The notes under the pieces are model-generated. The model had not been told where the DNA came from, ran no database searches, and worked only from the letters and a program-made list of their open reading frames with translations. From Mucor racemosus (lineage: Eukaryota; Mucoromycota; Mucoromycetes; Mucorales; Mucoraceae), in the NCBI GenBank assembly GCA_027405735.1, contig JAPEHQ010000007.1, positions 2,691,001 to 2,755,000 of the forward strand: a stretch of 64,000 bases of DNA. The letters are read 5' to 3'. The position numbers and the translations under genes are program-made. Every line of letters begins with the position of its first letter. The first letter of the stretch is position 1. Positions 9,177-55,210 of this stretch are shown one piece after another.

Positions 9177-11430
9177 GCACTACGGCCGACCTGTGCTGCA
9201 CAAAATGATTTTATTGTGTCCAGGTGGTCTGCACACTATAATCTGAGCTGTTGTGCCCACTGAATATGGCTAGAAAGATAATATGCACATCGACACAACA
9301 AAAGAAACTGAACACGAGTACAACGCTAAGCCTGTATGATGTACAGAATTATAGATTCTGTCCATGTGCATAACATTAATCCCATGTGTGCATAGTAGTA
9401 GAATTGCCCATAAACATATCATTATTCCTATTTGTACATAATAATAAAATCTGACCATGAGCATAATGAGCTGATTGTATGGGCACAAATTGGCTTGTAC
9501 ATGAGCATCGTGCCGTTCTCAAAATTTCATTGCATTTTTTTTACTGGAATGGGGGTTTGAATTACATTTGCTTTTATTAATATAGATTACAGACAATAAT
9601 ACAATTTCATACGTTGTTGATGTATAGCAATACATGCAAGAACCAATATATTTACGATTATTATCATTTGTAAATATGTTTATAACTATAATGTTTACAG
9701 CAAGAATGGTCTTTTCTTGGGCATAAAATTAAATAACACTTACTGCGTAAATTTATATGCAAGCCAAATCTAAGATTATATATGTTACTTTATCACATAT
9801 GAAATTAAAAAAATTAACCTTTAAACTTGCTATTTTAGTTTACAATTGTCAGCTGTAAAAAGATATGCTTCAAGTATACGGTAGCTACAATCGAAACTAT
9901 GATTATTAGACAAAACATTAGATTATTCTTTTTTTTTGTTTCTATATCATTTGAAATTTTATCATTTTTCTGGAACATTTCGTGGGTTTGGGGCGGGTTC
10001 TAGCTTTTTATTGAGTAGATATGAATATCATTACCATCGATTTGATCTGGTAATCAAGAAATACATCCAACAATACAGTAATAAATTAATAATGATATTT
10101 GATCTTAGAAGAATGGTGTTAAATGAAAGTATCAGTCTCTTATATAATGGCTGCTACATATATTAAAAACATGAGTCCCCCATGTTAGCATGCATATCTA
10201 GATAAAAGAAAAGAATATCAGCTTGATAGTCTGATATACCTTATCAAATGATGAATATATTATCCTCGGAATATGACACAAAAAGAGAGAAACAACACAC
10301 GTAGAAAAGAATTTTTAAGGCTTTACATTATTTAACGTAATTAAAACCCTGCAAAATTGCACATTTCAACCAATGTAAAAGCAGTATTACAGCGCACCAA
10401 CGAACCATAAACTAAATAAATAGGCAATATCTGTTATCATAGAAACATACATTTTTCTATTAGAAAAACCGTCTGTCATACCATACATTCGTTAGAAATT
10501 GCAAAAGCAAGCCCGCAGAGCGATGCAGTAGTGTTTGAGCATAGCAAGATCGAACGACTAAGTCTCTTATACTATGGTATATATCTAAGATTTAAATAAA
10601 AATGCGTTTTTTTAAACTTTTATTATATTTAACCATGTACGGTCTGAAAATTCAGTTTTTGTAGCGGACATTTTCCGGGCTCATTTTACCCTTACCAACA
10701 CTCATGATTTTGATCAAAAAACAGAAAAATCAAATTTTGATACCAAAAACAACGTTTAAATATACTACAATGTGAGAGAAAATTGTAGCCATAGCCAATA
10801 CGCATTTTATAAAAGCTTAATATTAAATGTTAAGTAATGAAACTTTGTACTTTTGCCCCCAAAACGGAATTTTGGTTAAAGGATTTTCATGTAATATTTT
10901 GCAATGAAAATGTTTATTATTTTCTATTGAGCAAATAGAGCGCTAAATTCTGTACATGTCCATATTTTTTGTTTTTATAATTGGTAGTATAACTAACTCT
11001 AGATTTGCAAAATCAGAAAAAAAAAATTAAAAAATGTCAAAATTGATGATCTGGACAAAAATAATTTTCTAAATTAATATTCCGCTTATAAGCCTTGTGA
11101 GTCTTAAAAATAAGAGATTTTATAATACTTGAAAACTTTTTCAAGGATTTACAATGCTGTACCCGCTTGATTCAAGCTTATTACTGTAAATCTTTACATA
11201 TGTTAATATTGTGTGGTAGTTTATTTAATAATGATGTAGTCTTACTTTATAATTATCGCGCTAGAGGTAGTTTACATTAACTTTTAATCTTACGTTTCCA
11301 ATATCATAAACATAAACATGGTCATCGCTGGAATCTGGAACTTATTGCCACCTTTTTACCCTCTTTGTCCCAAGCCAATTTATTCAATGCTCTACTAGAA
11401 CAAACCTAATAAGTAACTTACAAATGGTTC
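9177..11430 (+). repeat. Composite dispersed repeat, copy A
   Basis: It starts at GCACTACGGCCGACCTGTGC, the same left edge as copy C at 49734, and is alignable along its length to copy C (with its insertions removed); the part from about 10345 also matches copy B (46107-47425). Order: a block with iterated GCATAA-type motifs (9270-9510), non-coding sequence, a conserved leader (TGTAGCGGACATTTT... to ...AATATTCCGCTTATAAGCC), the start of a retroelement ORF (MLILCGSLFNN at ~11201), and an antisense dynein-chain fragment. The leader and ORF start also occur, inverted, inside the retroelement at 15700-16330. This copy has lost about 60 bp near 11405 relative to B and C. Confidence 0.75.
11290..11410 (-). 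pseudogene. Dynein intermediate chain fragment (copy A), broken
   Basis: On the minus strand it reads ALNKLAWDKEGKKVAI and then goes out of frame before the expected SDGHVYVYDIGN-type end, which is still recognisable in another frame and followed by a GTAAG donor. The block matches the C-terminal WD40 blade of cytoplasmic dynein intermediate chains (family pattern ALNxxxWxxxGxxxAxGxSDGxxxxYDxGE). Copies at 47051 and 54525 are better preserved. Confidence 0.6.
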
Positions 11431-11936
11431 CTCGGTATTTGCATTCAAATTACATAAATTAGATTAACTGGTTCCATCTACAACAGTAGTATCAAACGTA
11501 TTATCAGTCCGCCTTATGGTGATGTCAATTTAATATCAGAAACATCCCATTGGTATTGTCACAAGCTATGAAAAGCTTGATTTTTAATAATACAGCAATT
11601 AAATAAAAAAACAAGATGATACGAATCGCATATGGTAAGTATTCAACATCTAGTTGGGTTTAATGAAGAATACTTTTGAACCCTTTTGAAAATCCTGAAG
11701 CAAACACAACATCTTGGTCCTGTAATTTCTATCCATCAAAATGTCACGATTTCCACCACACAATGAATGCACCTTTTATCAATCTTGACCCTGTTTTACA
11801 TTGAGTACCAGTTTTTTTGCCAGTTGTATTTTCTCTGGTTCATTAATATTCGGTCATATTAAATGATAGTGTATTAAATTACAATTTACTAGTATACTGT
11901 TGGTAGTTTTTTGTTATTACTTTAAAAACTTGATCC

Positions 11937-13503: not shown

Positions 13504-15755
13504 TTACAGCATAACAGCGTTGTCTACTACATGTTTTCTCTCCCTTTTTACCTTTGTATTAGATAAATTCTTTTCATTATTAACATGATTTCTAGTGAAA
13601 CTCTTATCACCACTCTCCACCAGCGTATTATCGTATCGCCAGAAAAGACGCGATAAGGTATCAGTCAAGATATTTTTAATACCACTACAAAAGGTAATAT
13701 CAAAATCCATTTCAAAAATTGTATCATAATAATTTTCAACCATTCGATCTAATTTAGTTGCGAATGTAGGAATAAAATACCACAATTATCCACGAACAGA
13801 TGGAATCCTCTTCCATACAACCATTGACGAAGAACTTTTTAAATGCATAGACAACTGCAGCTAATTCTTGTTTGAAACTTTCACATCTTTGCTCTGATAG
13901 ACCCAAACTGTGTGCAATAAAACCAAGATATTTTATTTTATTACCAATAACTTGATACATTGCAGCGCCATTTGCATATATATGCAGAACTAATATCTGT
14001 AATAACACAGATTGGATAATGTAGGTTAGGCACACTCAATACTGCTGAGCTGACTAATAAGTCTTGCAATTGCTTCATTAATTTAGTATGTTCTGGTGTC
14101 CATACTTTAGTAATATCAGGCGCATTTCTCAATTTATCTAGTGGTACTATCAACGTTGACAAGCGTGGCAAATTAAAACAAAAAAAGTTAATCAATCCTA
14201 AACATAAACTCAATTCACGGCTACTTTTAACGATAGGTTCCCAATCCAAAACATTTGAAACCTTTCGAGGATCTAATGCTAAACCCTCACTAGATAAGCA
14301 GAAACCCAATATATAAATGCTCTTTTGTGCAATATGTAATTTATCAGTATTTTTATTACGTAAATTTGCCTTAATCAATTGACCTAAAACAATTTTAACC
14401 AGTAGTTCTGTATGCCTTTTCAGGTCGTTTTTAGTATGTATAGTGACATCAACTATGAAGTGAGTGGTAGTATCACTGATATCAGCAAACAAATTAGGAA
14501 GTATTTTTTGCGCGTACGATGAGACCATTGTCAATCTGTACGGGCAGTGAGAGAAGGACCACGTCAATCCCTCCGTATCAGTGAACGTCAAATACGATCT
14601 TGACGATCTGGATATTTTAAATGCATAGAAACAATGCAATAAGTTATTAATTACAGTATAGAGCAAATGCTTCGACATCTTACGATGCAAATTACTTATC
14701 AAAGTCAATGGAAAACCTTCAAGTTTTTTCAGGATCCAACGCGTTATTTATCAAACAACAATCAATTACCACAAGGTACTCTTTTCCAGTGTATTCACCA
14801 TCACTATTTTTATTTCTTAGAGTAAAAATTGAAGAATTATGAGGTGTATTAGGTTTTGCTCTTTTAATCACACCATTTTCTGGCCATTTTTCAACTTGTT
14901 TTTGAATAACAGGTCGCCCTGCTTCAGCAATTGGAAATTGTCTACGACATGTATTCGCAAGTGGAGTATCTTTCTTTATGGGCAATGTAATTTTACTACT
15001 AGCAATATTGCAATATACTTTAGGACTAATATTAGTATTTGAATCAATAAATGACTTTGATTCGATTCTTCCATCATGATTTTACGTTTTTCTTCAGATC
15101 CATAAAAAATTTCATTTGGTTTTTTATAAGGATTGGGTTTGATCTTAAGTATTTCATAACCAACACAATTTGACCGATCTTCCGCAATATTACCTAATGT
15201 AATACCAACTTTATACAATAATAATTTCATTCCAAATACGCAATAAACATCATCAAATAAATCAAAAACTTCAAACTTTAAATAAACAATTTTAGAACCA
15301 TAATTAATTATAAGCTCTTCTTCAGTTTGACCTTTATGATCTACTACGCTGTTATTTTGTGCTAACTTAGTAATACCATTTTTATTGCAAATATTTAAAT
15401 TTAAAAAAGAAATTAATTGTGGTGAAATTGCACTAAATGTGCAACCAGTATCCAACAAAAACCAAGTGTCGATCTTGATATCAGCATTTGTTTCTAAAAT
15501 AACAGGTAAATAAAGAAGATCATTCGTGTTCATATTATTATTAGGCATCTTCCTAAAATAATCACTATCAAATTGCTTACATTCGCTATCAGTATCCATC
15601 TTGGATAATTCTTTTTTAGCCTTATTTGGTTCAATGCGATGAATATTGACATAAAATCTAACGCAATAATCATAAATTAAGACTATATTATCATCAAATA
15701 AACTATCACACAATATTAACATGTTTAAAGGTTTACAGTAATAAGCTTGAATCAA
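13504..15755 (-). pseudogene. Decayed Ty3/gypsy-type pol (protease-RT-RNase H), integrase missing
   Basis: Read from 15755 down, the frames form a broken polyprotein. The N-terminal frame (15755-14976) contains an aspartic protease site, FLLDTGCTFSAI. The next (14985-14719) has the RT entry region RQFPIAEAGRPVIQKQVEKW and NSSIFTLRNKN. The third (14708-13941) covers the RT palm and thumb, where the usual YVDD box reads FIVDV. RNase H follows, split over two frames (TDISSAYI, then LSEQRCESFKQELAAVVYAF) and ends as FCSGIKNILTDTLSR. Frames change several times, so it is inactive. Only about 40 residues remain before the LTR-like repeat; no integrase zinc finger or DDE core is present, and no gag was recognised. 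Confidence 0.85.
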
Positions 15756-16335
15756 CTGGGTACAGCATCGTAAATTCTTGAAAAAGTTCTCAAGTATTAT
15801 AAAATCTCTTATTTTTAAGATTCACAAAGCTTATAAGCGGAACATTAATTTTAAAAATTATTCTTGTCCAGATCATCAATTTTGACATTTTTTAATTTTT
15901 TTTTTCTGATTTTGCAAATCTAGAGTTAATTATACTAGCAATTATAAAAACAAAAAATATGGACATATACAGAATTTAGCGCTCTATTTGCTCAGTACAA
16001 AATAATAAACATTTTTATTGCAAAATATTACATGAAAATCCTTTAACCAAAATTCCGTTTTGGGGGCAAAAGTACAAAGTTTCATTACTTAACATTTAAT
16101 ATTAAGCTTTTATAAAATGCGTATTGGCTATGGCTACAATTTTCTCTCATATTGTAGTATATTTAAACGTTGTTTTTGGTATCAAAATTTGATTTTTCTG
16201 TTTTTTGATCAAAATCATGAGTGTTGGTAAGGGTAAAATGAGCCCGGAAAATGTCCGCTACAAAAACTGAATTTTCAGACCGCACATGATTAAATATAAG
16301 AAAAGTTTTTAAAAAAATGCTTTTTTATTTAAAAT
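15756..16335 (-). repeat. Retroelement leader, inverted relative to composite repeats A-C
   Basis: Non-coding stretch between the upstream LTR-like repeat and the pol ORF. Its reverse complement matches 10590-11200, 46340-46960 and 53820-54440 almost base for base (for example GTCAAAATTGATGATCTGGA and TTTTATAAAAGCTTAATATT). It therefore marks the same retroelement family in the opposite orientation. Confidence 0.75.
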
Positions 16336-31386: not shown

Positions 31387-32739
31387 CGTCTTATAAATAC
31401 AGTTGGTTTTAATGAAACTTGACCATTGAGAAAAAAAAAAAAAAGTCAATAACATTACGACATTTTACTATACTATAATGACAATGTTCTATCATTCTTA
31501 ATTGCATCTGTATCTACAGTAAATATATGAAAAAGTATCATGGCAACCAATTGTAGCTGGGTTTGATTACTTTTGGTTCCTGGTTGTTATGGCGCTGCAT
31601 TTCAATTGTATCGTTGTTTTGTTTCATTTAATCAAGTTATGCAGGATTTGAAAAGGCAGAAGCAAACTATAAAACAGAAAAAGGTCTTAATGTTCTTTTA
31701 ATAGTAAAACAAAGAGAGAAAGAGAGAAAATACGGGGTCAATGGTAATATAGTTTGAAACATTAAAGTTGGTTTGTTTAAATGTTGGAATTCTTGTAAAT
31801 TTATGCTAATGGATTAAATTATTAAATCTTGAGCAGGATCTCTTTTTTCGAATTTATTCTCTTGTATTTATATTTATAATAAGAAATACAGCATTTTCAT
31901 CTCAAATATTTCTACATGGAAAATGTTATGATTAAGTATAGATGATAATGTATATGTTGAATATTCAAATAAAGTTTAGTGTCCATGAATAATGCATTCG
32001 GAATGGGGGAAAATTCAAGTGTCATGTCTGTTTTTTTTCATTTCTTAAAACTATTTAAAGAAACGATCCTCGTTTAATTATCTCATCCATAGCTATGGTA
32101 ATGTTTCTCCTTAAACAGCAGCATAAATCATCATTTAGAATAGAAAAACGCGATTCCAATATCATGATATACGCACGATATAGCATTTATTTATAAATAC
32201 GCATATGTGTACATATTGCATTACAATAAAAGAAGAGGGAGTTTTTAATCTAAAAGATACAAAGCACATAAATTAAATCATACAGCTAATATCATAATAT
32301 AAATTCAAAACATTTTGAAACTTTTAAATGTTGTAATAATAAACCTTTTTTTGATACATTGTGCACCTTAAGAATATTTTGTGATAATAATACCCACTTT
32401 AAATATTTAGATATTACCGTGCAACACATAAAAGCGTAACATTGAATACATTTTTATAAAGACAAATGTCATTTTTACAGAATATTGGGTCTACACAATA
32501 CATAACGTGGTTCCTTTTTTTAACATGCATTATGAATTGTTGTTATAATGATAACAAATATCACGGCGCCTTTTTTCCCTTTTTTTCTCAAATAAACTTT
32601 AAACTAGCATCGTTATGTTAGTAGAGCGGCGAAAAAATCCTAAAGGCCGTGTGAGAGACGTTTAACAAAGTCAATGTTTTACACATTATTAAAAGGATGG
32701 AGGGCTTTTATACGTAAAGTTTCTTTTTATATATATATA
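30903..32739. other. Upstream region of the MedA-like gene, no gene
   Basis: Holds the long 5' region of the MedA-like gene. A poly(T) run of over 30 nt lies at about 31350-31386, and further short A/T runs occur. No supported ORF or RNA was seen before the transposon edge. Confidence 0.55.
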
Positions 32740-33176
32740 CAGTGCATCCATTCTCAAATGGAACATTTTTTGAACTTCATGGCACATTTTTCGAAAATAA
32801 AATGGAACATTCAACCAATTAAATTCAAACAAAATTTGAACTCAATTTGGAACACACTGTGAACCTCAATCTAAATACTTTTTGAAATTAAGATTGCTCG
32901 CATGTGTGAGGTTAAATTGCCCAAAAAAAGAGAGGCTTGATTGACCAAATGTATGAAGCTAATTTACCCAGCTTTCCAAAAAATAAATCAACCACTTTTT
33001 GCAAATAAGTTTACCAATTTCTGGGCTGGGGGGAGGACATGTCTGAGGGAGGAGAGAAAAAATAGTACTCCAAATATGGTAATTTTAAAAAAAGTTCAGC
33101 ATTTCACCTGGCTTCGTTTCAGCATTTCATCTGGCCTCGTTTCAGCATTTCATCTGGCTTTTTTCTTAAAAAAATT

Positions 33177-33419
33177 ATGGTTGTTATTTCTCGCGAAGAG
33201 GCAGTATGTTTATTTTATGCTGTACCATACAATCAGGAGAATGCAAATAAGTATACCAAGGTCATCGATGAAATGGAAGGTATAACCATTTGCTACTGTG
33301 AAAATCCTAAGCACACATTTCTTTGCTCGCTAAAATCAATGGATCTTAATCGATCAGAATATAAACAATATCCTGCAATTTTGCAAGCAATCAAACAACC
33401 TTTTGAAGCGATAAAATAA
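33177..33419 (+). CDS. Element ORF starting in the left inverted repeat (80 aa)
   Basis: The first 34 residues (MVVISREEAVCLFYAVPYNQ onward) lie inside the left inverted repeat and match the start of the opposite-strand gene except for one residue. The unique tail (ITICYCENPKHTFLC, ending PFEAIK) still resembles the corresponding part of the other protein (VEICFTRNSKKPRLLC), suggesting a truncated paralogue or the 5' end of an alternative gene. No splice continuation was found. Function unknown. Confidence 0.5.
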   Translation: MVVISREEAVCLFYAVPYNQENANKYTKVIDEMEGITICYCENPKHTFLCSLKSMDLNRSEYKQYPAILQAIKQPFEAIK

Positions 33420-33467
33420 TGCAAGATTTAATAAATAAAAAAATCTTTTAAATGTAGAACAAATTAA

Positions 33468-34890
33468 CTAAATCAGATTGGGAGTGGGAGGGGGCAACAT
33501 CTTCGAGCGATAGAACAAATTTTCTCTGCCATCGAATTTAAACAAAGATTTTTTTTCAATGATTTCGTCCTCGCATTCTAATATATGTACTTGATTATCA
33601 TGCACTATTGTATCTATGATAATTTTTTTTAAATTGGAGTGCTCACTAAAACCAAAGTTAGCTAATTGTTTTGCTTAGAAAGTAATATGTCACATACCGA
33701 ATAAAAAATTCCAAATCGTTCATGTTTGTAGTCAAACCCGCAGAATCAATAATCGCTAAACACGCTTTATCCACCTTTGCTAAGTCCTTTATTAAGTCTA
33801 CAAACAAAAAGTCAGTATTAAATGCAAAATTGTACTCTATAGTATTTTATATAAGATATTGAATACCTTGAGCGTCACCAGCCACGTCTGATAATTCATT
33901 CATTATATTACCCTTCTTCAAATCTCTTCTGTGCATGGGAGTCTTAGAGTTACAGCTGACTGTAACGTAAACATTTTCTACCAAAGACCTTTTTTGTAAT
34001 CCAACTATCATTGATTGAAGCGATTCGACTACATTAGCATTACCCCCCGTCGTTTTCGACTTGCGGCAATAACCTAATATACGGTATCCTTCTTGTTTTA
34101 AGTTCGTGATATATTGTTGGTATCTTTCAGGTAATTTGATAATATCTTCCAATAAAACATCTACAATGCAATAATTATTAATACTGTAATAGTGATAATA
34201 ATAAACACATTAATTGCCTTTATAGCTATCCTTTAATACGTATACGCCTCGCAGTGATGACCTTGTCGCTGAATTTTCATGTTTTCTCTTCACCTTTGCT
34301 TCCAAAAACTTCAACTTCTGTGAGGAACACCATGTAACAAATTTGCTGAAAGATTGGCCTTGAAAAATCAAACAGTAACGCTGCATCTCTGACATAATAC
34401 TATTGCTTGATAAAAATCTATATTCATATGATATGGATTTAGGGTCAATTGGTAGATACGCAATATTTATAAACTGTTTTAGTTGCTGTGAAGATTCTAT
34501 GAAAATGATAAGGTCAGTTATTGGAAGTGAAAAAATATTTTACTGTGAACAAGTACCAAGCATTATATTATAATCTGCATTAATAACTTCATTTACTTCT
34601 ATATCCGCTTCTTCATTATTATTATCTGTATTAACAACTTCATCTACTTCTCTATCCGCTTCTTCGTTATTTTCAATTGTTCCGTTTGAAGATGAATATA
34701 AGTGAATGTCGAACCAATTTGCGTAAATAATTCTTGTACATAAAAGCCTTGGTTTTTTAGAATTCCTTGTAAAACATATTTCTACATCTTCCATTTCATC
34801 GATGACCTTGGTATACTTATTTACATTCTCCTGATTGTATGGCACAGCATAAAATAAACATACTGCCTCTTCGCGAGAAATAACAACCAT
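33468..34890 (-). CDS. Element-encoded protein with a serine-recombinase-like signature, unknown function
   Basis: Five exons phase together (34890-34557, 34496-34218, 34160-33867, 33797-33698, 33645-33468) into 394 residues. The second intron would use a GC donor (AAG|GCAATT). Residues 1-34 come from the inverted repeat. Residues 73-107 are an acidic tandem duplication (NNEEADREVDEVVNTD, then NNEEADIEVNEVINAD). Residues 230-275 read GYRILGYCRKSKTT...SLQSMIVGLQKRSLVENVYV, and 319-335 read IDSAGLTTNMNDLEFFI. This layout recalls serine recombinases: YxRxS (235-239), a SLxxQ-like helix, then a DRLxRNxxDL-like block; here the second block lacks both Arg. The homology is weak inference. It could equally be a captured host gene or a lineage-specific family. 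Confidence 0.6.
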
Positions 34891-35471
34891 AATTTTTTTA
34901 AGAAAAAAGCCAGATGAAATGCTGAAACGAGGCCAGATGAAATGCTGAAACGAAGCCAGGTGAAATGCTGAACTTTTTTTAAAATTACCATATTTGGAGT
35001 ACTATTTTTTCTCTCCTCCCTCAGACATGTCCTCCCCCCAGCCCAGAAATTGGTAAACTTATTTGCAAAAAGTGGTTGATTTATTTTTTGGAAAGCTGGG
35101 TAAATTAGCTTCATACATTTGGTCAATCAAGCCTCTCTTTTTTTGGGCAATTTAACCTCACACATGCGAGCAATCTTAATTTCAAAAAGTATTTAGATTG
35201 AGGTTCACAGTGTGTTCCAAATTGAGTTCAAATTTTGTTTGAATTTAATTGGTTGAATGTTCCATTTTATTTTCGAAAAATGTGCCATGAAGTTCAAAAA
35301 ATGTTCCATTTGAGAATGGATGCACTGTATTTTATAATAAAAATCAAATAGATTTTGTATGAAGCTTAATTTTGTGTGTGTGAGAGAGTGCGTATGTGTA
35401 TAAAAAAGGGAATTTATAAACGGTATCATAAAGAAAAAAGAAGACATAAAATATACGGTTGGTTTACAAGC

Positions 35472-45784: not shown

Positions 45785-46106
45785 TAAATCTTTTGCAATA
45801 ATTATGTGGATCAACACTAGAAGTACCTGCCATTGCACCGGGAGGACTTCTGGATCCATATTCATTGAGAACTGGTGAGCTTACTGACCTTAGTAGGCAT
45901 AAATGAAATTTCAAAAGGGTCTATATGCTGCAGATAATCCTGTCAAAATGTTGCACTTTTATTAACAATATATCCTTAGATGTATTTATATTCTTTAATT
46001 GTAACTACTACTAGGGCTTTATTATCTAAGAATATGATGTAAATCAATAGTCTGCATTGATTTACTATAGCACCAATTATAGACTGAGATCTTGGATATG
46101 AGACTA
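45785..46106. other. Short spacer between repeats
   Basis: Nothing recognised between the dispersed repeat and composite repeat copy B. Confidence 0.4.
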
Positions 46107-47425
46107 AAACCCTGCTAAATTGCACATTTCAGCCAATGTAAAAGCAGCTTTGCAGCGCCTGAACTATAAACTAAGCAAAATAGGCAATATATTTTACTAT
46201 AATAGAAACATAAAATTTTCAACTAGAAAAACCGTCTGTCATATCATACATTCATTAAAAAATTGCAAAAGCGAGTCGGCAGAGCAACGCCGTAATTGAG
46301 CATAGCAAGATAGAACGGCTAAGTCTCTTATGCTATGGTATATCTAAGTTTTAAATAAAAATGCGTTTTTTTTTTTTACTTTTCTTATATTTAATCATGT
46401 ACGGTTTGAAAATTCAGATTTTGTAGCGGACATTTTCGGGACTCATTTTATCCTTACTAACACTCATGATTTAGATCAAAAAACAGAAAAATTAAATTTT
46501 GATACCAAAATCAACGTTTAAATATACTACAATGTGAGAGAAAGTTGTAGCCATAACTAATACACATTTTATAAAAGCTTAATATTAAATGTTAAGTAAT
46601 GAAACTTTGTACTTTTGCCCCAAAAACGGTTTTTTGGTTAAAGGATTTTCATATAATATTCTGAAATAGAAAGGTTTAATATTTTTTATTGAGCAAATAG
46701 AGCGCTAAATTCTGCATATGTGTATATTTTTTGTTTTTATAATTGGTAGTATAATTAATTCTAGATTTGCAAAACCAAAAAAAAAAATTAAAAAATGTCA
46801 AAATTGATGATCTGGACAAGAATAATTTTTAAAATTAATATTCCGCTTATAAGCTCTGTAAGTCTTAAAAATAAGAGATTTTATAATACTTGAGAACTTT
46901 TTCAAGAATTTACAATGCTGTACCCACTGGATTCAAGCTTATTACTGTAAACCTTTATACATGTTAATATTGTGTGGTAGTTTATTCGATGATAATATAG
47001 TCTTACTTTATAGTTATTGCGCTAGACGTGATTTACATTTAGTTTTATTCTTACATTTCCAATATTATAAACATAAACATAGCCATCACTGGAACCTATT
47101 GCCACCTTTTTATCCTTTTTGTCCCAAACCAATTTATTCAATGCTTTACCAGAACAAACTTACTTTTGACATATAAAAATTGATTTATTAGTAAAATAAA
47201 TTATTAATAACAAGCTAATAAGTAATACTGTACTTATGGTGTACCTTTGAGAGTTGGTAGTGGTATACAAGTCAACATCTCTCTCGTTTTCATCTCCTTG
47301 GCTGTTGTTGGCCACTAAATAGAAACAAATATTTTTTAGAAACTAAATAGATTAACATAAGTTTATTCATTCATTCAAATCAAATGAAAACTATACATAC
47401 TTTTATAATCACCAATTTTTCAGCA
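46107..47425 (+). repeat. Composite dispersed repeat, copy B (5'-truncated)
   Basis: Starts at ACTAAAACCCTGC, corresponding to about 10345 in copy A, so the GCATAA-rich front part is absent. The leader, the ORF start (MLILCGSLFDDNIVLLYSYC at 46961) and the antisense dynein fragment follow in the same order as in copies A and C. It ends directly at an LTR-like unit (47427). Confidence 0.75.
47051..47315 (-). pseudogene. Dynein intermediate chain fragment (copy B), two exon pieces
   Basis: Minus-strand reading gives an upstream piece (VANNSQGDENERDVDLYTTT), a GTACACC donor, an intron-like spacer, and a WD40 piece (ALNKLVWDKKDKKVAIGSSD, then GYVYVYNIGN) followed by a GTAAG donor. The pieces do not join cleanly in frame, and the rest of the gene is absent, so this is a captured fragment. 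Confidence 0.62.
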
Positions 47426-50099: not shown

Positions 50100-52644
50100 C
50101 AAGTAGAGATTACCCCGATCAGCCCATTTGGGCCGACCATTTAAAAATAAATTTTTCTCCACAAAGACTATATATCAAATAATGATTAAGTCTGCCATGA
50201 GAAGACAGTGTTTCTCTATACGATCTTTTTTGTTTTTTTCAAAAAAAGTGATAAATGAGCCATTAATCGTCCATCTTGTGAAGGCTGTTTTTCAAAAATT
50301 GAGTACGCCCATTTGGGCCGACTTTTTAGACAGTTGGTATTCTTGAAAGTTAGGACAATTTTATTTAAAAAAATTAATAGAAATATACTTGCAGTTACAA
50401 AGAATTATTTACATGTTGTTGGCGAGCCCAAACGTCCTGTAAATGTGCAGTATAGCACGATTTACACATAGGTGTATGTGGGTCGCAGCTACACGATTTT
50501 TCCACTCTTGTACCACATAAGCCAGAACGATAGCAACTGGCACATCCTAATCTGATGCGTTTTTTACCATCCTCTCCTTTCATGGTGACATATGAATGCG
50601 TTCCACAACTTCTAAGTACTCTTTGGTCATTGGAAATCGACTCAGTGGCATCAGGGCCACGAGCCAACTCCTCACAATGCGAAAGAAGGGTCCAAGCCAA
50701 AGTATCCTTGAAGGAACTATGGGATATTTCCCCATCTTTTGCGAATACTCGAAAAGAGCTAAACGCATTAGCTTCACAGATACCCAAAAAGAAGCCGAAG
50801 AAACGCATCTCCCACCTTTCAGTGGAAATGATATCGTGGTAAGAAGTCATATTATCACGAAGATTGTTGGCAGCATCAACGGAACCTAGTATTGCGATCA
50901 TCAGTATATGCTTTTAATGTACGCAAAATATCTACTCACTCTTATGAGTCTCATACTCATCTACTACAGCAGGTCGTCTGATAGTTACTTGTTGACCATC
51001 ACAGCCTACAAATGTTTTTTGACCTGACATAATTGTAGTACCACACGACGATACAAAGGCCTTAACCTTCTTATCGCGATAGGCACATACAAAGATTCTA
51101 CCATTACTAAGGTCGTTTTTCATCATCGTGTAATGACTACCATGAGCCTCTTCCACTTGCTCTACGATATCAGTAGTAGGCATACCTCGGGGCCAGTAAC
51201 GACGCTTTGTTACCTGCATGATGGAATATAATCCAAGATTAGATAACATTGTTGTCATCTCTGGTGACCCAAACCAAGAATCCGCAATCACGGTGCGACC
51301 ACTACCAAACCAAGGTTTTACCAGGCGTTTGACAGTTGCTGTCAGCTTACGCATACCAGCATCATTATCATACTCCTTAGGTTTAGGATCGCCTACAGTA
51401 TCCATACGTACAATGCAGAAAGTGTGGTGGTCAGCCAATGTTTTGAATTCTTGACCGATGGGGTGAGGCTTTCTTGGGACCTTTTTCAAGTTGGGCATTC
51501 CAACACCTAGCCATTGATTCATTGACTCATCAATTACCAAATACTTACCAGGTTCTAAACAAGCTGCCATGTGACTGTTGAATGCATCAATGGTTGAGCG
51601 AATCTGATACAAAGGATCAAGCTGTTGTTTTTCAGCAGAGTGGACTTCAAAACAATGCATGCGCATAATATCATTAAATCGTTTGAACGACATATATCTC
51701 GAGAAGTTGATGCTCATCATAAAATGACTTGATCCTTGTCTCCAATATGCCTTACGGTCTGAATGTTTAAGTACTGTCATGACAGTGAGGAGCGCAATCC
51801 ACATCAAATACTCATTGAAAGTAAGATCAGACCAAGAATTGTTAACATTTCTTGCATGAATGTTGATGTTACCAATGATGCGATGAAAGTGGGCCAATGG
51901 TAAAAAAAACAAGAAATATTCCAAGGGAGTGGCATATTTTGCATTGGATAACATTAGTTTTGCTTTCTCATTTTGATAACTTACATTACAAAGCCTGTTA
52001 TCAATAAAAACTTCTCCAGCACTCCATCCTTCAGCAGGAGTCAAGTCAATCTCAACATCTTCCTCTTCTTCTTCCTGAATAGCGTCTTCCAGAAGGTCCT
52101 CGCTCGCGATGGGTACATTAACAACCTCTGGAGCTACTGTACTTTCGGAAACAGGGACTTCAACAGGACCAAGATACTTGATACAACCTTGCTTAATGGT
52201 CAATGTAATACCTGGTACCTCGTTCAAGACAACATCATACAGAACTCTGTTGTTGACCTCTGAACGGCCAGTTGTCACTCCCTTGAAGCTCAAAAGGGGT
52301 GTATTCCAATCGTACTTATCGCGTAAGATGCTTTCAGCCTCTACGTTGTTGATGAAACGTTTGCTTATTGATACAAGTACGTTAATAGCGAGTTTACTGT
52401 TAGCGGGAGGCATGACTTTCAGATTTTTGAATATAAATTAGGGAAACTTTAAAAGCAAAATTTAATAAATAGTAAATAATGAAAATAATTTCAAACAAAA
52501 AAAAAATATCAATGTATGCCCTGAACTTCTGAAGCCAAATACGAGATTTTAAAAAATCAAATTCCCTTCCATTCAAAAACGTTGATTTATTGTCGGCCCA
52601 TTTGGGCTGAATCGGCCCAAATGGGCTGACCTAATTCCAACTTG
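50100..52644 (-). mobile_element. piggyBac transposon, complete, TTAA target duplication
   Basis: TTAA sits at 50096-50099 and 52645-52648. The ends are CAAGTAGAGATTACCCCGAT and the complement of CAAGTTGGAATTAGG..., followed on both sides by the subterminal motif CAGCCCATTTGGGCCGA, which recurs at 50307-50322 and again inverted at 52592-52629. Copy A of the host repeat (cttttaTTAAtatag near 9575) shows a closely related unoccupied site. The single gene inside is intact, so the element could be autonomous. Confidence 0.95.
50395..52413 (-). CDS. piggyBac-type transposase (DDE_Tnp_1_7)
   Basis: Two exons (52413-50940 and 50885-50395), joined across a 54-nt intron, give 654 residues with no stops. 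The catalytic acidic residues expected in piggyBac are visible: first Asp in YLVIDESMNQWLG, second in VIADSWFGSPEMTTML, third in ETHKSSVDAANNLRD, the last spanning the splice junction. The C terminus carries a cysteine-rich cross-brace region (CASCYRSGLCG, CSCDPHTPMCKSC) like the DNA-binding domain of piggyBac transposases. The N-terminal ~110 residues are less conserved and end in an acidic stretch (EDAIQEEEEEDVEIDL). It executes cut-and-paste transposition at TTAA sites. Confidence 0.93.
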
Positions 52645-53323: not shown

Positions 53324-54524
53324 GAATAGTGATATTTGACCTTAGAATGCAGCTAAATGAAAATATCAGTCTTCAATATAACGACTGAAACCTATATTAA
53401 AAACGTTAGTCTCTTATGTTAGCATGCGTATTCAGATAAAGAAAAGAATACCAGCTTGATAGTCTGATATGCCTTATCAAATGGTGAATAATATCCTTGC
53501 AATATGAAAACAAAAAGAGAGAAACAACACACGTAGAAACGGATTTTCAAGGCTTTACATTATTTAGCGCGCAGCTAAAACCTTGCTAAATTGCTTATTT
53601 CAACCGATGTAAAAGCAGCATTACAGCACCTGAATTATAAACTAAGCAAAATAGGCAATATCTGTTACTATAATAGAAACATGAAATTTTCTACCAGAAA
53701 ACCTAGCTGTCATATCATAGATTCATCAAAAAATTGCAAAAGCGAGCCCGTAGAGCAACGCCGTAATTGAGCATAGCAAGATCGAACGGCTAAGTCTTAT
53801 ATTATGGTATATACAGTATCTAAGTTTTAAATAAAAATGCGTTTTTTTTAACTTTTCTTATATTTAATCATGTACGGTTTGAAAATTCAGTTTTTGTAGC
53901 GGACATTTTCGGGGCTCATTTTATCCTTACCAACACTCATGATTTAGATCAAAAAACAGAAAAATCAAATTTTGATATCAAAATCAACGTTTAAATATAC
54001 TACAATGTGAGAGAAAGTTGTGGCCATAACTAATACGCATTTTATAAAAACTTAATATTAAATACTAAGTAATGAAACTTTGTACTTTTGCCCCAAAAAC
54101 GGGTTTTTGATTAAAGGATTTTCATGTAATATTTTGCAATAAAAATGTTTACTATTTTTTATTGAGCAAATAGAGCGCTAAATTCTGCATATGTGTATAT
54201 TTTTTGTTTTTATAATTGGTAGTATAATTAATTCTAGATTTGCAAAACCAAAAAAAAAAAATAAAAAATGTCAAAATTGGTGATCTGGACAAGAATAATT
54301 TTTAAAATTAATATTCCGCTTATAAGCTTTGTAAGTCTTAAAAATAAGAGATTTTATAATACTTGAGAACTTTTTCAAGAATTTACAATGCTGTACCCAC
54401 TGGATTCAAGCTTATTACTGTAAACCTTTATACATGTTAATATTGTATGGTAGTTTATTTGATGATAATATAGTCTTACTTTATAATTATTGCGCTAGAG
54501 ATAACGTACATTGAGTTTTATTCT

Positions 54525-54787
54525 TACCTCTCCAATATCATAAATATGAACATGGCCATCACTGAAACCTATTGCCGTCTTTTTATCCTCTTTGTCCCAA
54601 ACCAATTTATTCAATGCTTTACCAGAACAAACTTACTTTTGACCTATAAAAATTGATTTATTGGTAAAATAAATTATTAATAACAAGCTAATAAGTAATA
54701 CTTATGGTGTACCTTTGAGAGTTGGTAGTGGTATACACGTCAGCATCTCTCTCGTTTGCCTCTCCTTGGCTGTTGTTGGCCACTAAA
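54525..54787 (-). pseudogene. Dynein intermediate chain fragment (copy C), best preserved
   Basis: The WD40 piece (54636-54525) reads ALNKLVWDKEDKKTAIGF, then SDGHVHIYDIGE, ending at a GTAAG donor; it fits the last blade of dynein intermediate chains. Upstream (54787-54715) is NNSQGEANERDADVYTTTNS with a GTACACC donor and an acceptor-like CTATTTAG before it. It lies antisense to the retroelement leader. Confidence 0.65.
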
Positions 54788-54845
54788 TAGAAACAAATAT
54801 TTTTTAGAAACTAAATAGATTAACATAAGTTTATTCATTCAGTCA

Positions 54846-55210
54846 AATCAAGTGAATACTACTTATAAAAATCTACTATTATTTAGAATAATTCACTTTT
54901 TTATCACATATGTAGTGCTTAATTGAGCTTCATAAGGCAAACACAACCAAATAAAAATATACTACATTGCGAAAGTAAAAATGTTCGTTAGTGAATACTG
55001 CAACAAATATTGCGGACCTTCAAGAAGAATCGCTATAAAACGTATTCATTCAAACAAAGCTTATATTTATTCCAGATGATAATGAGAACACTTCCTATAA
55101 GTGATGGAATAATGTCTGATAATTTAATATATATTTTAAACAATGAATTTATTAGTTTTTATATTTGACATCGAAAAAGAACGGGGGGGGGGGAATAAAT
55201 AAAAGATGAT
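54846..55210. other. Spacer between repeat island and unknown gene
   Basis: AT-rich, with a G run near 55184-55192. Nothing else recognised; presumably the 3' region of the following minus-strand gene. Confidence 0.45.

Follow-up and report, generated by a model that had tools for sequence, protein, structure and literature searches.

Tc1/mariner elements are reported to be the largest group of transposable elements in sequenced Mucorales (PMC7928374), and more elaborate relatives have been described in ciliates, where Sardine, Thon and Tec (the last as cited there) carry a putative site-specific recombinase gene of the tyrosine type, with terminal inverted repeats (TIRs) of 425 bp in Sardine and about 700 bp in Thon (PMC3464196), and where the TBE elements are reported with three open reading frames (ORFs) (PMC4724952). 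In this study, we analysed a stretch of 64,000 nucleotides from Mucor racemosus (assembly GCA_027405735.1, contig JAPEHQ010000007.1, positions 2,691,001 to 2,755,000 of the forward strand), hereafter the window, which holds a TA-flanked element with long inverted arms and two convergent genes, L and S. The genome searched for relatives comprises 53.2 Mb in 54 contigs, the window being part of contig C7. Our analysis indicates that the element is probably a non-autonomous member of a Mucorales IS630/Tc1/mariner (DDE_3) cut-and-paste clade with L and S as an accessory pair. Tc1/mariner elements are usually one-gene transposons, a plan from which fungal members with a conserved pair of accessory genes would depart. 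In window positions, the element is laid out as follows:

32740..35327, no strand: whole element, 2588 bp, with S and L inside, read as non-autonomous and of Tc1/mariner type
32738..32739, no strand: left flanking TA
35328..35329, no strand: right flanking TA
32740..33284, plus strand: left inverted arm, 545 bp, with 4 differences from the other arm
34783..35327, minus strand: right inverted arm, 545 bp
32738..32761, plus strand: terminus of the END1 type, TACAGTGCATCCATTCTCAAATGG, with 5 mismatches to the consensus TACWGTGCTTCCACTCTCAATTTA
35306..35329, minus strand: terminus of the END1 type at the opposite end
32879..33017, plus strand: subterminal stretch, wholly or partly common to 8 other loci (68-84% identical), mostly together with END1
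33095..33163, plus strand: three tandem units of 23 bp ahead of S, related to a stretch that precedes S in the copy on contig C16
34909..34977, minus strand: three 23-bp tandem units upstream of L
33177..33419, plus strand: S gene, 80 amino acids, the N-terminal domain alone
34557..34890, minus strand: L exon 1
34218..34496, minus strand: L exon 2
33867..34160, minus strand: L exon 3, with the motif GYCRKS
33698..33797, minus strand: L exon 4, with IIDSAGLTTN
33468..33645, minus strand: L exon 5, with the stop codon

Both strands of the element open with CAGTGCATCC, and the original prediction of a TA-flanked element is borne out by the dinucleotides on its two sides. The near-identity and equal length that it gave for the inverted repeats also stand, but the two differences that it counted are in fact 4 over 545 bp (33224, 33244, 33280 and 33282), all within the final 61 bp, the outer 484 bp of the arms being identical; the ungapped inverted repeat as a whole covers 32724-33284 and 34783-35343, and three tandem units of 23 bp are present in each arm. 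Both genes begin inside the arms, and their ATGs, at 33177 (plus strand) and 34890 (minus strand), lie 437 bp in from their respective edges, the same distance that had been predicted. L is a minus-strand gene of 394 amino acids in five exons, again as predicted: splice sites were found for four introns (three GT-AG and one GC-AG, 34217-34161), and alignments with two annotated proteins of Mucor cover 99% of the length of the protein. S converges on L with 48 bp between the gene ends and is the counterpart, sited in the other arm, of the N-terminal domain of L (about amino acids 1-68). The AlphaFold2 model of S has a confident core (ten-residue blocks of 86-96 over residues 1-60; mean 83.5), and, to judge from its sequence, S is a separate, conserved gene. 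The claim that the element has no recognisable transposase agrees with a profile search, in which no DDE match fell within 32740-35327.

The mobile nature of the element is indicated by its termini and by the elements that share them. We used two terminal patterns, END1, whose consensus was derived from loci found by the window arm, and END2, taken from C7:656512. In the fetched loci, the window-terminus pattern gave 11 matches, 10 of which begin exactly at TA (the exception is on C5), and the DNA outside them appears unrelated by eye, bar two mirror-image flanks on C7; on C7, C16 and C23 the matches are placed outward of S or L. With up to 3 mismatches allowed, END1 occurs at 49 dispersed sites of the genome compared to 0 for the reversed pattern. 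Further copies bearing the ends thus exist, the ends are not confined to one locus, and, with DDE_3 transposase genes adjoining some of these sites, the prediction of a non-autonomous mobile element is upheld. Of the window element itself, or of its own ends, the genome holds no second close copy: an exact 12-mer of the window terminus has 3 occurrences, 2 of which are its own ends (reversed control, 1).

A DDE match pointing inward beside END1 was found on C16, at both ends of C20:333358-334567, at C5:1439134 and at C12:1733564 (lists compared by eye). Four inverted END1 pairs were fetched, of 90, 625, 1210 and 1757 bp. The arms of the longest, which contains an L remnant, measure 430 bp (399 identities, 12 mismatches, 20 gap positions), the 1210-bp pair (C20:333358-334567) holds a DDE_3 transposase fragment between its two END1 termini with no L detected, and the 90- and 625-bp miniatures gave no match to L or DDE. 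Two features of the family, TA at both ends and inverted termini in common with DDE-encoding elements (C16 and C20:333358-334567), are present in the window element. Moreover, the window arm matches the C16 copy in an outer stretch (44/51), which lies 18-69 bp inside the C16 END and about 210-263 bp inside the window END, and in an inner stretch (141/172) just upstream of S and into S. The C16 DDE gene sits between both shared stretches and is missing from the window copy, which for this reason we regard as a non-autonomous member of the family that has been shortened internally.

END2 has 26 genome sites compared to 0 for its control. It forms the outer ends of a TA-flanked element of 6.2 kb, C7:656512-662675, whose arms measure 2245 bp (2237 identities, 7 mismatches, 1 gap). 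A DDE-type gene with the same single in-frame stop lies in each arm, and an S/L pair occupies the centre between a nested inner END1 pair. A 241-amino-acid piece of this gene matches the DDE_3 and helix-turn-helix models below cut-offs, and a later piece is above the cut-off in the DDE_3 genome search. We rejected this element as a member of the window end family with its own DDE gene, because its outer ends are END2 and its END1 pair is only nested. END2 also bounds C18:238045-244975, whose two ends hold L and a DDE gene, respectively, and a further END2 site precedes L at C17 by 534 bp. Two other elements were seen alongside these: directly after L on C18, a 1647-bp inverted-repeat element (C18:239431-241077) with TACAGTGAGTCGC ends and 214-bp arms, and, at C24:189338-194162, an END2-bounded element of 4.8 kb with 130-bp TIRs (92%), other ORFs and a reverse-transcriptase-like ORF (by eye), in which no match to L, S or DDE was found.

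The association between the gene pair and these ends exceeds that of random placements, which ignore contig ends and base composition. With the window omitted, 5/27 L/S clusters lie within 2 kb of END1 or END2 (random mean 0.19; five or more in 0 of 20,000 draws), and without the C7 copy and its four END sites this is still the case for 4/26 (random mean 0.17; 4 reached in 0 of 20,000). DDE matches, counted on 100 positions hand-collapsed from 125 matches with 4 subtelomeric duplicates removed on each side, occur within 3 kb of 4/23 clusters, a number reached in 4 of 20,000 draws (random mean 0.27), and within 5 kb of 6/23, a number that none of 20,000 draws reached (random mean 0.44).

A tblastn search with L gave 61 genome matches in 28 clusters, in several of which the N-terminal domain recurs at the far end on the opposite strand. 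Convergent L/S pairs were found in the window and at C16:638-640 kb, C7:659-660 kb, C17:632-634 kb, C2:2943-2945 kb and C2:1468-1470 kb; two possible further pairs (C23:11 kb and C1:1533.7 kb) rest on weak matches to the body of L. The C16 copy contains stops, and its first L exon is unmatched; in the subtelomeric copies (C1, C4, C23, C42) S and L are divergent, and the remaining clusters are single or partial. Identities between loci can exceed those between S and L: for C7 and C17, S is 72% and the L N-ends are 71% identical, compared to 48% and 55% for S and L within one locus, and the window and C16 S proteins are 83% identical, compared to 76% for window S and L over their aligned part. 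The ratio of nonsynonymous to synonymous divergence (dN/dS) is below 0.5 in the S-S and L-L comparisons used, from which three frame pairings for exon 2 of window and C16 are left out, with 0.206/0.901 (C7-C17), 0.083/0.267 (window-C16) and 0.14/0.325 (C14-C18), that is 0.23, 0.31 and 0.43, for S, and 0.163/0.446 (window-C16, exon 3) and 0.226/2.12 (C7-C17, N-end) for L. As a separate observation, L, S and a DDE fragment repeat jointly, with S and L divergent, at C1:0.5-3.7 kb, C4:3.109-3.113 Mb, C23:805-808 kb (contig ends) and C42:5-8.5 kb, and L with a DDE fragment occurs without S at C29:60-64 kb. At C17, a common stretch ending TTTTTGTAGACCATCG lies upstream of both L (632192-632218) and S (634203-634228); it resembles a 3′ splice site, which suggests a leader intron ahead of both genes.

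Of the 78 database proteins recovered in a profile search seeded with eight S proteins, most are stand-alone and S-like by eye, including 80-amino-acid proteins 76-83% identical to window S. Thirteen of the 78 were kept out of the S group because they are L N-ends, fragments or odd (5 moved to the L group, 8 dropped), and 5 more from this search, shorter than 58 amino acids, were left out of the tree. The L/S homologues that bear an organism name come from Mucor, Rhizopus, Thamnidium, Phycomyces and similar genera, all members of the Mucorales. In the resulting tree, which with 99 rows on 76 columns is weakly resolved, the window lineage consists of an S group (8 rows, 97/62, unstarred), including the window and Parasitella, and an L group (11 rows, starred) covering Mucor, Rhizopus, Mycotypha, Backusella and Pilobolus rows, both within a starred joint group, and the S/L label changes 6 times on the tree compared to 24.7 in shuffles. 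We therefore take L/S to be an old convergent pair with relatives of both genes in other Mucorales, not a recent host-gene capture; the idea that the element had taken in a host-like gene does not fit a pair of this age that is found in several end-bounded elements.

How the two genes have kept similar fronts is best seen in two lineages. The pair at C2:2943 kb was set against P0065 (S) and P0087 (L), which are listed under the same longest contig and are treated here as proteins of one relative. In the front halves, S and L agree at 46/46 positions in this genome and at 45/46 in the relative, but at only 40-41 of 45-46 across genomes; in the tails, S-S (20/27) and L-L (20/25) agree across genomes, but S-L at only 4/25 inside each. 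The window lineage repeats this pattern: at the front, S and L of the window agree at 33/34, compared to 24-29 of 33-34 between window proteins and five outside proteins, and in the tails S-L agreement within the window is 7/41, compared to 34/46, 37/46 and 26/42 for S-S and 27/41 and 23/41 for L-L. Outside the window, P0048 (S) and P0003 (L) have 29/34 front positions in common, no S and L among the five outside proteins being known to share a genome. Given S and L tails that stay distinct across genomes and fronts that are alike within them, the S/L duplication is old, with distinct 3′ parts, and the arm-borne 5′ parts have been made alike in at least two lineages, probably through gene conversion or fold-back copying between the arms. 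Front homogenisation also accounts for the 91% identity of S and L over 54 aligned codons at C2:2943 kb. Because arms are homogenised within elements, their identity cannot date activity. We dropped such dating, as fronts are homogenised while tails stay apart, and with it the view that high repeat identity reflects recent activity, the window ends also having no close copy in the genome. Arm identity is thus unsafe for dating elements, and S/L pairs, with homogenised 5′ halves and 3′ halves that stay apart, offer a natural test of long-inverted-repeat identity over time.

The C-terminal domain of L is predicted to adopt a serine-recombinase fold, as structure matches 1-10 to the model are all serine recombinases or integrases by title (3g13 being titled merely "conjugative transposon recombinase"). 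A GYxRKS motif is present in 17/17 hand-chosen L rows, and P0026, outside those rows, has GYCPKS. Residue 215 of the L model lies opposite chain residue 2 in 2gm5 and 1zr2, which would put R221 and S223 at 8 and 10 if ungapped; the Arg8/Ser10 motif is apparently in place. After strand 3, L reads IDSAGLTTN or IDFAGITTR with no Arg directly behind the Asp (by eye), and the Arg68/Arg71 pair, whose roles in serine recombinases are described in PMC4499144, seems to be missing. The Pfam family PF00239 gave no match at E ≤1 in window L or in a six-frame genome search and was not among the 25 of 35 families listed for L alignment A3; the tyrosine recombinase families gave none at E ≤1 for window L or S. 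Because of the predicted fold, a part for L in mobility is plausible.

We propose that a DDE transposase encoded elsewhere recognises the CAGTGC ends and inserts the element at TA, as the ends and relatives suggest. Clade members would carry both genes: L would consist of an N-domain, a middle domain and, at its C-terminus, a serine-recombinase-like domain, and S, which has only the N-domain, would be transcribed from the other arm in the direction of L. Arm-to-arm gene conversion or fold-back copying would equalise the promoters and N-domain starts and leave the 3′ parts distinct. L may bind element DNA, multimerise via its N-domain and assist or regulate movement or arm recombination, and S, which shares this domain, may tune or block L. 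Both S and L are open although this copy has no transposase, which suggests that the two genes serve the element family or their own retention. A bolder version, possible but somewhat unlikely, is that a fungal Tc1/mariner lineage recruited a serine-recombinase-type L together with S as its single-domain regulator, with L pairing, inverting or converting the arms and the DDE enzyme performing the jumps. If this is true, an arm-acting L keeps both ends and both gene starts identical and is a serine counterpart of the tyrosine recombinases of ciliate Tec and Sardine.

On the same predicted fold one could argue that L is itself the transposase, a serine-type enzyme with a 2-base stagger at TA, and that DDE elements share or invade its sites; TA could serve as the crossover dinucleotide of such a stagger, and the window copy retains open L and S and no DDE gene. 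We consider this unlikely, since END1 also bounds C20:333358-334567, where DDE but no L was detected, and the 90- and 625-bp miniatures, since IS607-type serine transposases are described without terminal inverted repeats or target duplications (PMC6188088), and since the counterparts of Arg68/Arg71 seem to be missing. Poorer still are the prospects of a reading in which a host gene pair stands at a fixed locus, the inverted duplication is a local one and the TA/CAG ends are a coincidence. Such a history would fit the lack of a second close copy of the window element, the many L/S clusters without recognised ends and the large inverted duplication around one L copy at C3:1066063-1073554, but a simple local duplication is opposed by the dispersal of END1 and END2 with zero controls, by the enrichment of ENDs at L/S clusters with and without the C7 copy, and by the 10/11 END1 matches in fetched loci that begin exactly at TA. 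The C3 locus was tried as another end-bounded copy and rejected, its 2.5-kb arms being without TA/CAG ends; it consists of 2517-bp inverted arms, 99.8% identical, that enclose the L copy, with adjoining ORFs that are BTB/POZ-like by eye. An equally slim chance falls to the recent capture of a host gene pair, with no role in the element, by a Tc1-type miniature: non-autonomous elements can pick up genes, and L has introns, but the pair or its parts sit in differently ended elements, and the window lineage extends over five genera for L and to Parasitella for S. Least probable is that the pair forms a selfish or co-opted module of two proteins, such as an effector with an antidote or inhibitor, which travels on transposons and persists because losing it carries a cost. 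The open S and L in a copy without transposase, the lineages with dN/dS below 0.5, the identity of S with one L domain and the dispersed divergent paralogues would lend themselves to this, but against it stand the degraded copies that are tolerated (C16 stops, solo remnants) and the lack of a known toxic activity.

Elsewhere in the window, a 493-amino-acid ORF (50932-52413, minus strand) has a strong match to DDE_Tnp_1_7 (E 1.1e-44), which we take to be a piggyBac-type family. A repeat of about 0.7-1.3 kb is present in 4 copies, 86-95% identical and one of them inverted (10088-11437, 15657-16334, 46104-47393 and 53325-54861), and 13941-15755 (minus strand) has weak retroelement matches (RNase H, aspartyl protease) under curated cut-offs.

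The element that we favour as a non-autonomous Tc1/mariner member shares features with several known systems. The IS607 serine transposases also have a C-terminal serine-recombinase domain behind another domain, but L has additional N and middle domains and the window element has long TIRs, whereas the account of IS607 gives neither TIRs nor target duplication and describes residues implicated in catalysis as well conserved (PMC6188088). Galileo/Foldback elements likewise have long, internally repetitive TIRs (0.5-1.2 kb in Galileo); they are described with a P-superfamily transposase (PMC3688188), and the likeness noted here is one of structure. Closest in host is Tc1-MP1 of Mucor piriformis, which resembles the window element in host group, in the IS630/Tc1 transposase family of the relatives and in its TA target; it is described with a single transposase ORF (PMC9977792), whereas the window element has long arms, the L/S pair and no transposase. 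Among the top-ranked matches in the open-access literature, we found no Tc1/mariner element of a fungus that carries an S/L pair or an accessory gene of the serine-recombinase-like kind, nor a serine-type counterpart of the ciliate elements. The nearest precedent is found in ciliates, in Tc1/mariner elements that combine long inverted repeats with a tyrosine recombinase: Sardine, Thon and Tec (PMC3464196) and TBE (PMC4724952) likewise join the IS630/Tc1 DDE clade with extra ORFs, and the TIRs of Sardine and Thon are long. They differ in host (ciliates compared to fungi) and in having a tyrosine recombinase instead of the serine-recombinase-like fold predicted for L; no S-like item was seen in these descriptions, and the window copy is without DDE. 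If our reading is correct, eukaryotic Tc1 elements would have gained site-specific recombinases at least two times, of the tyrosine type in ciliates and of a serine-like type in fungi.
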